Source: Celeribacter naphthalenivorans (GTDB lineage Bacteria > Pseudomonadota > Alphaproteobacteria > Rhodobacterales > Rhodobacteraceae). From it: a stretch of 64,000 nucleotides of DNA. Within the stretch, counting starts at the first letter, position 1. Each line of letters begins with the position of its first letter. The notes under the pieces were generated by a model that was not told the origin of the DNA, did no database searches, and saw nothing but the letters and a program-made list of their open reading frames with translations. The stretch is taken from assembly GCF_020524585.1 (NCBI RefSeq), contig NZ_JAIVLK010000006.1, positions 186,001-250,000 of the forward strand, in the 5' to 3' direction. Shown in pieces: positions 25,167 to 30,793 of this stretch. The position numbers and the translations under genes were made by a program.

Positions 25167-25237
25167 TTTTGACCATCTTCCTAATGAGCGAACGCAACAA
25201 GAACACATTTGGAAGATAGCAACGGAGACCCACGGTT

Positions 25238-25957
25238 ATGCGAATTTTGCTGGTCGAAGACGATCCCACCACCTCGAAAAGCATCGAGTTGATGCTGTCT
25301 CACGCCAACCTGAACGTCTATACGACGGATCTTGGCGAAGAGGGGATCGATCTCGCGAAACTTTATGATTACGATTTGATCCTTCTGGACCTCGGTCTGC
25401 CGGATATGAACGGACACGACGTGCTGCGCCAATTGCGCCTGGCCCGTGTCGACACGCCGATCCTGATCCTCTCGGGCGCCGATGACACCGAGAACAAGAT
25501 CAAAGGATTCGGCTTTGGTGCCGATGACTATCTGACGAAACCCTTCCACCGCGAAGAGCTTGTGGCGCGTATTCACGCCATCATTCGCCGCTCCAAAGGG
25601 CATTCCCAATCCATCATCCGCACCGGCAAGATCGAGGTCAATCTCGATGCCAAAACCGTCTCCGTCGGCGGCAAGCCTGTGCATCTGACCGGCAAGGAAT
25701 ACCAGATGCTGGAGCTTCTCTCCCTGCGCAAGGGCACGACGCTCACCAAGGAGATGTTCCTCAACCACCTCTATGGCGGCATGGACGAACCGGAACTCAA
25801 GATCATCGACGTGTTTATCTGTAAACTTCGCAAGAAGCTCGCCAATGCGACTGACGGTGAAAACTACATCGAAACCGTCTGGGGCCGTGGCTACGTGCTG
25901 CGCGATCCGGAGCCGGGCAGCGGTCATGGCGACGAACAGATTGCGATCGGTGCCTGA
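25238..25957 (+). CDS. ctrA: Cell cycle/motility response regulator CtrA
   Basis: OmpR-type response regulator, 239 residues. The receiver has the acidic pocket (LLVEDDPTT), phospho-acceptor Asp in [13 protein letters not shown] and Lys in [13 protein letters not shown]; the winged-helix domain has [32 protein letters not shown] and the ending [11 protein letters not shown]. In Rhodobacterales it is generally non-essential and controls motility, gene transfer agent and signalling genes. The adjacent SciP-like gene and a CtrA-like box suggest feedback control. Confidence 0.95.
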
Positions 25958-28260: not shown

Positions 28261-30354
28261 ATGAGCACGGGCCGCCCGGATATCCTCTTTCCGCTCTTTG
28301 CCGGACTTGAAACTCTGGCTGGCATCGGTCCGAAAACCGCTAAGCTCATGCCTGCGCTCGCGGTGGAACGCCCGCGCGATCTTTTGTTCACCCTGCCCAA
28401 TGCCGTGGTGGATCGGCGGCGACGCGACAGCCTGCGCGAGGTCTCACCCGGGATGATCGCCACGGTCGAAGTCACCGTGCTGCGTCACCAACCGCCCGCG
28501 CGCAAAGGGCTGCCGTATCGTGTGATCGTCGAGGATCGAGAGATCGCCTTTCAGGTCGTGTTCTTTCGCGGGTCCCCGAAATGGATCGAGGCGCAATTGC
28601 CCGTGGGCGAGCGGCGTTTGCTGTCGGGCAAGGTCGAAATATATGACGGCCAATATCAGATGCCGCACCCGGATTATGTTCTGACGCTTGAGGAGTCTGA
28701 CGATTTGCCGGGCTATGAGCCGGTCTATCCGTTGACAGCGGGGGTGACCCAGAAAACCATGGCCAAGGCGAGTGCGGCGGCGTTGGAATTGGTTCCTGAT
28801 CTCGAGGAATGGATCGATCCGGCGTTGAAGGCACGCGAAGGTTGGCCCGATTTCAACGCAGCTTTGGCGCAGGCGCATCGCCCGCTGTCGCAAAATGAAA
28901 TCACCCCCACCAGTGCCGCGCGGCAAAGGTTGGCCTATGACGAACTCTTCGCACATCAGGTGACGCTGGCTCTGGCGCGGGCGCGGGTGCGGCGGGGCAA
29001 GGGACGGGTGAACGAAGGCGACGGGAATTTGCGCGGTAAGGTGTTGAAAAAGCTGCCCTATCGCCCGACCGGCGCGCAGGCCCGCGCGATGGATGAAATC
29101 GCCACGGATATGGCCGCCCCGCAGCGGATGAACCGGCTGTTGATGGGCGATGTGGGGTCGGGAAAGACCTTGGTCGCGCTCTTTGCGTTGCTGGTGGCCG
29201 TCGAAACGGGCGGGCAGGGTGTTATGATGGCGCCGACGGAAATCCTTGCGCGTCAACATCTTGAGGGACTTAAACCTCTGGCTGAGGCTGCCGGTGTGGT
29301 GTTGGAGCTCTTGACCGGGCGCGATAAAGGTCGCGCACGGGCGGAGAAATTGGCGGCTTTGAAACGCGGGGACATTCACATTCTTGTCGGCACCCATGCG
29401 GTGTTTCAGGACGATGTCGAATTCCATGATTTGCGCCTGTCGATCATCGACGAACAGCACCGTTTCGGCGTCACGCAGCGTCTGGCGCTGGCGCAAAAGG
29501 GCGAGGCGGTGGATGTTCTGGTGATGACCGCGACGCCGATCCCCCGGTCGCTTTCGCTGGCGCATTACGGCGATATGGATGTCTCCGTGTTGGACGAAAA
29601 ACCGCCCGGGCGCACACCCGTCAAGACGGCGCTGAGTTCTATTGAGCGGATCGATGAGGTCGTCGCGCATCTCAAAGGTGCGATTGCGCAGGGGCGGCAG
29701 GCCTATTGGGTCTGTCCGCTGGTCGAAGAGAGCGAAGTCGTCGATATGATGGCCGCCGAAGAGCGGTTCAAAACGCTGCGCGCAGCCTTTGGCGAGGGTC
29801 ATGTCGGCTTGGTGCACGGTCAGATGGCGGCCGAGGACAAGGATCGCACCATGGCGGATTTCGCCGCCGGTCGGCTGTCTGTTCTGGTCGCCACGACGGT
29901 GATCGAGGTGGGGGTCAATGTGCCCAACGCCTCGATTATGGTGATCGAACGGGCGGAACATTTTGGTTTGGCGCAGCTGCACCAGTTGCGGGGCCGGGTG
30001 GGGCGCGGCGATATCGCCTCGACCTGTTTGCTGTTGTACAAACCGCCTCTAACAGAAACCGGTCGGCGGCGGTTGGAGATTTTGCGCGAGACCGAAGACG
30101 GGTTTCGTATTGCCGAGGAAGATTTGGCGATGCGCGGCGCGGGCGATGTCTTGGGTACGGCGCAATCGGGGCTGCCTCGGTTCCGTGTTGCCGACCTGGA
30201 ACGGCAATCGGCCCTCATGGCGCTGGCGCAATCGGATGCGCGAAAACTGCTACATGACGATCCGAAACTAGAAACGGAACGAGGAGACCATGTGCGTGTT
30301 CTTCTTTGGCTCATGGGCAAAGATGAAGCAATCCGTTTGATTTCAGTGGGTTAA
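28261..30354 (+). CDS. recG: ATP-dependent DNA helicase RecG
   Basis: Branch-migrating helicase that remodels stalled forks. The 697-residue product has an N-terminal wedge/OB region, then superfamily 2 motifs: Walker A LLMGDVGSGKTLVAL, motif II IIDEQHRFGV, motif III VMTATPIPRSL, and motif VI region LHQLRGRVGRGD. Full length. It is downstream of ligA and upstream of the putative SOS-controlled peptide. Confidence 0.97.
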   Translation: MSTGRPDILFPLFAGLETLAGIGPKTAKLMPALAVERPRDLLFTLPNAVVDRRRRDSLREVSPGMIATVEVTVLRHQPPARKGLPYRVIVEDREIAFQVVFFRGSPKWIEAQLPVGERRLLSGKVEIYDGQYQMPHPDYVLTLEESDDLPGYEPVYPLTAGVTQKTMAKASAAALELVPDLEEWIDPALKAREGWPDFNAALAQAHRPLSQNEITPTSAARQRLAYDELFAHQVTLALARARVRRGKGRVNEGDGNLRGKVLKKLPYRPTGAQARAMDEIATDMAAPQRMNRLLMGDVGSGKTLVALFALLVAVETGGQGVMMAPTEILARQHLEGLKPLAEAAGVVLELLTGRDKGRARAEKLAALKRGDIHILVGTHAVFQDDVEFHDLRLSIIDEQHRFGVTQRLALAQKGEAVDVLVMTATPIPRSLSLAHYGDMDVSVLDEKPPGRTPVKTALSSIERIDEVVAHLKGAIAQGRQAYWVCPLVEESEVVDMMAAEERFKTLRAAFGEGHVGLVHGQMAAEDKDRTMADFAAGRLSVLVATTVIEVGVNVPNASIMVIERAEHFGLAQLHQLRGRVGRGDIASTCLLLYKPPLTETGRRRLEILRETEDGFRIAEEDLAMRGAGDVLGTAQSGLPRFRVADLERQSALMALAQSDARKLLHDDPKLETERGDHVRVLLWLMGKDEAIRLISVG

Positions 30355-30393
30355 GATCAGGCTCAGATTCTGCTCCTACTTTTGTTCACAAAT

Positions 30394-30408
30394 GTTCTTA
30401 AAAAGTTC
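30394..30408 (+). promoter_or_regulatory. LexA-type SOS box (GTTC-N7-GTTC)
   Basis: GTTC 30394-30397 and GTTC 30405-30408 separated by seven bases match the alphaproteobacterial LexA operator. An extra GTTC lies at 30384, and GAAC-N7-CAAC (one mismatch, inverted) at 30432-30446. The site is 68 bases before the ATG of the 40-aa gene and 40 bases after recG. Confidence 0.65.
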
Positions 30409-30475
30409 TTTACAGGTCGCGTGCAATATGAGAACAAATTAGCAACAAGTCATTAACCATACTGGTGAGGATGCT

Positions 30476-30598
30476 ATGATCAAAGACCTGAAATCTATTG
30501 TTGCCCGCTCCCAAGCGACGCTGTTCGAAGATATGTTGGGTGCCCTTGCTCTCTTGGTGATCCTTGTCGGTGGGCTAACACTGCCCGCTCTGGTTTGA
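30476..30598 (+). CDS. 40-residue membrane peptide, possibly SOS-induced
   Basis: ATG 30476 follows a GGTGAGG site; 40 codons to TGA. The first 20 residues are amphipathic and polar (MIKDLKSIVARSQATLFEDM), the last 20 are one hydrophobic span ending TLPALV. No known domain. A GTTC-N7-GTTC box and a TTAACCAT half-site (30453-30460) lie upstream, and a strong terminator follows at 30759, so this is a short independent transcript. By size and topology it resembles SOS-induced division inhibitors such as Caulobacter SidA, but there is no sequence-based proof of that role. Confidence 0.7.
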   Translation: MIKDLKSIVARSQATLFEDMLGALALLVILVGGLTLPALV

Positions 30599-30758
30599 GC
30601 CCCCCCCAGTCTCTGACTTTTCTTTCTGCCTCCGATCTGACCCCGACACACTTGGCTTTCTATGAGCTTGTTCTGACGCTTTACCTGTTCCTGTCAGATG
30701 TGGCGCCCTCAACCGCCATTGCCTCTTGCCTATCCCCTGTGACATCAGATCATGCCTG

Positions 30759-30793
30759 CCGCCGCCTTCTTTTGAAGTGCGGCGGTTTTTTTT
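30759..30793. terminator. Terminator between 40-aa gene and chemoreceptor
   Basis: CCGCCGCCTTC pairs with GAAGTGCGGCGG (one bulge) around a TTTT loop, followed on the plus strand by eight T. It ends the small transcript and abuts the stop of the opposing chemoreceptor gene. Confidence 0.85.

Follow-up and report, generated by a model that had tools for sequence, protein, structure and literature searches.

A 40-aa open reading frame downstream of recG in Celeribacter naphthalenivorans raises the question of whether it is a real gene under SOS control, and of what its short transcript might produce. We examined it within a window of 64,000 nucleotides (contig NZ_JAIVLK010000006.1, positions 186,001 to 250,000), to which all coordinates below refer. 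A first-pass annotation of this sequence had proposed a LexA-controlled, one-span membrane peptide, citing a GTTC-N7-GTTC box, extra half-sites, a CtrA half-site and a terminator of its own. The upstream neighbour is a 697-aa ORF that we take to be recG, the same name that the annotation gave. The features of the locus are as follows:

28261-30354, + strand: recG (presumed), the upstream neighbour, ORF of 697 aa
30384-30387, + strand: additional GTTC half-site, six bases before operator 1 (sequence; conserved across loci)
30394-30408, + strand: candidate LexA operator 1, GTTC-N7-GTTC, reading GTTCTTAAAAAGTTC (sequence, conservation, LexA matrix)
30432-30446, - strand: candidate LexA operator 2, inverted, GAAC-N7-CAAC, 38 bp after operator 1 (LexA matrix, conservation)
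30454-30461: CtrA-type half-site TTAACCAT (sequence)
30467-30471, + strand: ribosome binding site GAGGA, four bases before the ATG (sequence)
30476-30598, + strand: gene for a predicted 40-aa one-span membrane peptide (profile search, selection, structure prediction)
30624-30751, + strand: structured 3′ RNA, Celeribacter variant (fold z score, covariation in genus and family)
30626-30630: CUGCC motif of the Celeribacter RNA
30634-30640 with 30745-30751: closing helix P1 of the Celeribacter RNA
30672-30698: hairpin P3 of the Celeribacter RNA, with UUACCUGUUCC in the loop
30700-30719: hairpin P4 of the Celeribacter RNA
30758-30793, + strand: intrinsic terminator, a hairpin (bulged U at 30778) followed by a U-run (sequence, fold, helix pairing)

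Judged by comparison with its relatives, the 40-aa ORF is a coding gene under purifying selection: pN was below pS in 188 of 190 Celeribacter pairs, and across the 47 unsaturated species pairs of this genus pN was 0.092 versus a pS of 0.468. A single-sequence search recovered the peptide in 31 of 61 relatives, with 20 of 20 in Celeribacter (its own genome counted). Using a profile built from 28 sequences, we detected it in 263 of 296 Rhodobacteraceae genomes, sampled at nearly one per genus, and in 113 of 121 genomes of the order; the profile counts are a floor. L341 (G063) was scored as peptide-negative, yet both operators are retained there, along with a short, diverged peptide that the profile missed. 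Outside the family we found no credible homolog, the one match among 189 genomes of the class lying inside a 908-aa frame. Searches of Pfam and NCBIfam gave no family match for the peptide (only two weak matches to DUF2124, E 0.16), and no PDB sequence matched it. A phage or plasmid gene was rejected, given the lack of any tblastn match in phages or plasmids and a single weak PHROG match (E 0.042) from 1 of 28 members.

We then asked how firmly LexA can be placed upstream of this gene. Operator 1 is separated from the peptide ATG at 30476 by 67 bases. Within the window, GTTC-N7-GTTC occurs four times versus 2.45 expected, a number that 23 of 100 shuffles reach, and a LexA matrix ranks the two boxes 7th and 13th, with moderate scores, among 127,948 positions and strands. 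A chance box, which is not significantly disfavoured by the window alone, was rejected on conservation. Loci were picked by peptide and not by motif, using the better-scoring peptide matches (97 loci, or 95 without duplicates), and the exact box was found 69-110 bp before the start in 93 of these 95. The box that the first-pass annotation had noticed is present at 30394-30408, and its conservation in relatives, on which that proposal had been staked, was borne out by the same loci. As a positive control in the same genomes, the equal box type was found at lexA in 30 of 30 cases and at recA in 29 of 30.

The matrix itself has 27 columns, was built from 59 lexA and recA operators, and was scored against a background of upstream sequence that is mostly recG coding. 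Operator 1 exceeds the 99.9 percent level of this background in 95 of 95 loci and operator 2 does so in 94 of 95, and the best site in the upstream region is operator 2 in 74 of 95 loci and operator 1 in 15. Among 93 aligned loci, 84 have the GAAC of operator 2 at exactly +38 from operator 1. In most genera this second operator has the form GAAC-N7-CAAC, and in L050 and L293 it is the exact GAAC-N7-GAAC. Both extra half-sites reported earlier, GTTC at 30384 and GAAC at 30432, are indeed there, but the GAAC is not a mere half-site and belongs to the inverted operator. The GTTC six bases before operator 1 is conserved at G92, T98, T95 and C98 percent across the 93 aligned loci. No convincing -10/-35 pair was recognisable in the conserved promoter block, 30400-30432 included.

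To gauge how widely this arrangement extends, we searched for the pattern GTTCTNAAAAAGTTCTTTAC at up to two mismatches and found it in 217 of 296 family genomes, as a single copy in most of them, versus 16 of 296 for its reversed control. Class-wide, 10 of 192 genomes carry it, and two of these belong to the family itself; this is near the reversed-control level, and for this reason the unit looks confined to Rhodobacteraceae among the genomes sampled; a generic sequence reaching beyond the family was rejected, as the pattern is not above control outside Rhodobacteraceae. In L103, a Muribaculaceae MAG, the 20-base pattern is present without the peptide gene, probably as a chance match. Profile search, box and LexA-matrix comparison together strongly support LexA control of a genuine one-span peptide gene, in agreement with the original proposal.

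The CtrA half-site at 30454-30461 also exists, but the link to CtrA that it might imply found no support. Among 20 Celeribacter, 17 retain TTAACC; TTAACC/GGTTAA occurs in just 27 of 95 loci, and the full TTAA-N7-TTAA in 1 of 95; CtrA control was rejected on this pattern of a half-site common in Celeribacter and sparse across the family. Elsewhere in the window, a LexA-like GAAC-N7-GAAC box at 25190-25215 lies 34-48 bp before a response regulator gene at 25238-25957, which we presume to be ctrA. In genomes with compared coordinates, ctrA shares contig and strand with the peptide gene and lies some 4.5-6 kb upstream of it. The box before ctrA was found in 8 of 14 Celeribacter and in 0 of 12 other genera, and on this comparison it may tie LexA to CtrA in Celeribacter.

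Across 95 sequences of the peptide, D19, G22, L34 and P37 never vary, the residues K6, R11 and T15 are kept at 82-97 percent, and positions 21-40 contain no charged residue in any sequence. AlphaFold predicts a single helix over residues 2-39 (mean pLDDT 87, pTM 0.44), and the N-terminal half is amphipathic with a mean moment of 0.40. Helical clustering of the conserved positions is weak (p 0.025 for 1-40, 0.16 for 19-40); their placement suggests one docking face on a membrane partner. By this model the product would be a small membrane-inserted peptide with one span, as in SidA-type inhibitors.

Several small membrane proteins provide points of comparison. YneA and SosA are also SOS-induced small membrane division inhibitors, belong to Gram-positive bacteria, and are compared here by description. 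Both are larger than the 40-aa peptide, and we know of no structured 3′ RNA for sidA. SidA of Caulobacter crescentus is reported to be an SOS-induced one-span division inhibitor (PMC4211646), and our peptide can be likened to it, by description and not by sequence, as an alphaproteobacterial, very small one-span membrane peptide under LexA-type control. The same report describes DidA of Caulobacter as a small membrane division inhibitor that is made after DNA damage independently of SOS, through DriD (PMC4211646); the peptide resembles DidA as a small membrane peptide probably tied to DNA damage and differs from it in that the operators here are LexA-type.

Downstream of the peptide gene, the earlier claim of a dedicated terminator was correct insofar as a hairpin and U-run exist, but these begin about 160 bases 3′ of the peptide stop, outside the range that had been reported. 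A simple terminator scan missed this element (0 found). Its helix is 97.3 percent paired in 17 Celeribacter sequences, and 108 of 116 loci show a terminator-like end after the peptide gene, the remaining eight being three duplicates and five without one. In most genera in the alignment, a single bulged base stands between the GAAG-type and GCGGCGG halves of the terminator. The first-pass annotation had overlooked the structured RNA before the terminator as well as the inverted second operator.

Comparison across genera identifies the stretch between stop codon and terminator as a conserved structured RNA. A plain MAFFT alignment of 28 cores yielded 0 pairs in RNAalifold, a result that we put down to misalignment; because of it we adopted covariance models and an alignment-free arm-swap test, in which the own arms of a helix are compared with arms from other genera. 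Genera outside Celeribacter have a long closing helix P1, hairpins P2, P3 and P4, and then the terminator, and 0 of 2000 shuffles matched own-arm pairing for P1 (n=79), P2 (62), P3 (59) or P4 (59), with P1 beating shuffled arms at z < -2 in 61 of 79. A first covariance model with 9 seed sequences found the RNA at E <= 0.05 in 60 of 97 loci, 51 of them outside the seed, and missed 37. A second model (R2), built from those 60 loci, detected the RNA at 62 of 100 named loci (117 fetched) and missed 38. All 62 matches share the strand of the box and lie 191-301 bases beyond it, and 3 of them exactly repeat a sequence used in the model. Being fitted to the model, both resulting alignments favour it, a bias of which the arm-swap test is free: the first had 92.3 percent of cells paired versus 74.3 in shuffles and 225 versus 47 double-sided changes, and the second 91.7 versus 68.0 percent and 298 versus 70 double-sided changes, with a covariation score of 0.539 versus 0.05-0.09 for slid structures.

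All 9 of the positive genomes that gave a strong match carry the RNA once, next to the peptide gene, and a search of 20 peptide-negative genomes with the second model, G063 among them, gave one weak match (E 0.43). In Rhodobacter-like and Paracoccus-like members the 3′ part is short and retains at least one CTGCC/CTGTCC motif. The second covariance model also missed the RNA of our own window. By comparison within the genus, the Celeribacter RNA is a divergent variant whose helices also covary: in the arm-swap test 4 of 5000 (P1), 71 of 5000 (P3) and 0 of 5000 (P4) shuffles matched, and across 17 species 90.4 percent of pairs formed versus 87.4 (0/500 shuffles), with 21 double-sided changes versus 10.6 (0/500 shuffles) and no rise in further pair types (404/500). 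The fold of 30624-30793, terminator included, has a z score of -4.33.

A recurrent sequence motif accompanies this fold. Across 87 RNAs there is a mean of 3.9 TGCCT/TGTCC copies per RNA, CTGCCT occurs 137 times versus 11.8 in dinucleotide shuffles, and the motifs are unpaired with probability 0.75 versus 0.47 for other C/U positions. Rfam gave no match in this region of the window at E up to 1, and in 14 relatives it gave one match far below cut-off, inside an upstream coding region, and none to the RNA. Parallels come from Rhodobacter sphaeroides, where the gene for CcaF1, a 71-aa DUF1127 RNA-binding protein under RpoHI/RpoHII control, is co-transcribed with the structured 3′ RNAs CcsR1-4 (PMC10253847, PMC8625941). 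That system, from the same family, likewise joins a small-protein gene to structured 3′ RNA; our locus differs from it in having a 40-aa membrane peptide, LexA-type operators, and one multi-hairpin RNA instead of four sRNAs. UdsC is similarly a 3′ RNA behind a small hypothetical protein gene (RSP_7527), and is described as 67 nt including its terminator and RpoHII dependent (PMC9779115, PMC8625941, PMC6238624); we rejected it as the same RNA, as size and sigma factor differ, a separation made by description and not by orthology.

Coding, the LexA-type operators, the RNA fold and the structure of the unit are established by this comparative evidence, in which peptide, operators, 3′ RNA and terminator make up a stand-alone unit. 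The best explanation of it, to which we assign somewhat less than an even chance, is a LexA-repressed unit that yields a division-delaying peptide and a folded 3′ RNA that probably binds RNAs or a protein. LexA bound to two inverted operators 38 bp apart would hold the promoter shut, and DNA damage, by way of LexA cleavage, would open it. The transcript would then yield two products, the 40-aa peptide and the folded 3′ RNA. The peptide would place its amphipathic N-terminal helix in the cytoplasm and cross the membrane with one uncharged span, N-terminus inside; D19, G22, L34 and P37 suggest docking on a partner in the membrane, for which late division proteins of the FtsW/FtsI/FtsN type are the likeliest candidates, and the docked peptide would delay division during repair. 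The folded RNA would display CUGCCU/CUGUCC loops, and probably binds other RNAs or a protein in trans. We take the peptide as the core output because lineages with a reduced RNA still have both the operators and the peptide.

Other readings assign these parts differently. The GTTC array might bind another regulator or be chiefly a promoter element, leaving the gene outside SOS control, and three features are congenial to this: an A-tract in the operator 1 spacer is conserved here and absent from recA/lexA operators, CTTKAC after operator 1 is conserved beyond what those operators show, and the third GTTC keeps its 6-base spacing. In the window, the base preceding the second half of operator 1 is A, and it is mostly T in recA/lexA operators. 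We nevertheless regard this reading as very improbable, as a matrix trained on recA and lexA operators finds both boxes far above background in almost all loci and the exact GAAC-N7-GAAC replaces operator 2 in two genera. The peptide could instead lower the membrane potential and slow growth after damage, in the manner of TisB and type I toxins, with the 3′ RNA limiting its translation or stability. TisB, of the tisB/istR system of E. coli, is an SOS-induced one-span peptide with a structured mRNA, and depolarising peptides of its kind have charged or polar residues in their membrane span. A one-span peptide under SOS-type control, its structured transcript and the amphipathic N-terminal half are in keeping with such a function, but the membrane half is uncharged in 95 of 95 sequences, the conserved fold here is 3′ and not 5′, and no toxin was matched in Pfam or NCBIfam, which makes this reading quite unlikely.

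The remaining readings concern the 3′ RNA. It could be the main product, a small RNA released by cleavage from the 3′ part, pairing with mRNAs or sponging a protein through its CUGCCUGUCC loops, with the peptide as an accessory in an arrangement like that of CcaF1 and CcsR; the covariation of its helices, the abundance and unpaired state of its motifs, and the 3′-derived sRNAs beside small-protein genes reported in R. sphaeroides all point this way, but we find it doubtful given that loci with a short RNA, or with one unlike the model, still have the operators and the peptide. Alternatively, the fold could act in cis alone, as a stability element and terminator of a short mRNA, which would accord with its directly abutting the terminator and with its single copy beside the peptide in every strong-match genome; mere stability does not explain the repeated unpaired CUGCCU/CUGUCC motifs, however, and we judge this rather unlikely. 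The LexA-repressed unit with a division-delaying peptide and an RNA-binding or protein-binding 3′ RNA remains our preferred reading. More tentatively, and with somewhat less confidence, we suggest that it represents a family-wide SOS dual-function RNA, encoding a new membrane checkpoint peptide and carrying CUGCCUGUCC-type loops that would act in trans by mRNA pairing or protein sequestering.

The available portion of a survey of LexA sites in D. shibae names lexA, recA, dprA and others, and does not name the peptide locus (PMC6473078). The main texts of PMC4809877 and PMC5107571 make no mention of recG, LexA or SOS. Within the open-licence PMC literature, the scope of our search (subscription papers and supplements lying outside it), we found no report of the peptide gene or the RNA.

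Rhodobacteraceae are abundant in the sea and harbour gene transfer agents, the production of which has been linked to LexA. With the peptide kept next to recG in most genera and the RNA usually present, the unit looks like an unrecognised part of the damage response of this family. If our reading is correct, it would be a Rhodobacteraceae SOS effector conserved like the recA and lexA operators and lying outside the searched profile libraries, and would offer a testable explanation of how division is held back during repair in these bacteria. The RNA would likewise be a new structured class tied to DNA damage, in a family with known 3′-derived small RNAs beside small-protein genes. If the dual-function reading also holds, one small gene would let DNA damage set both division and post-transcriptional control.
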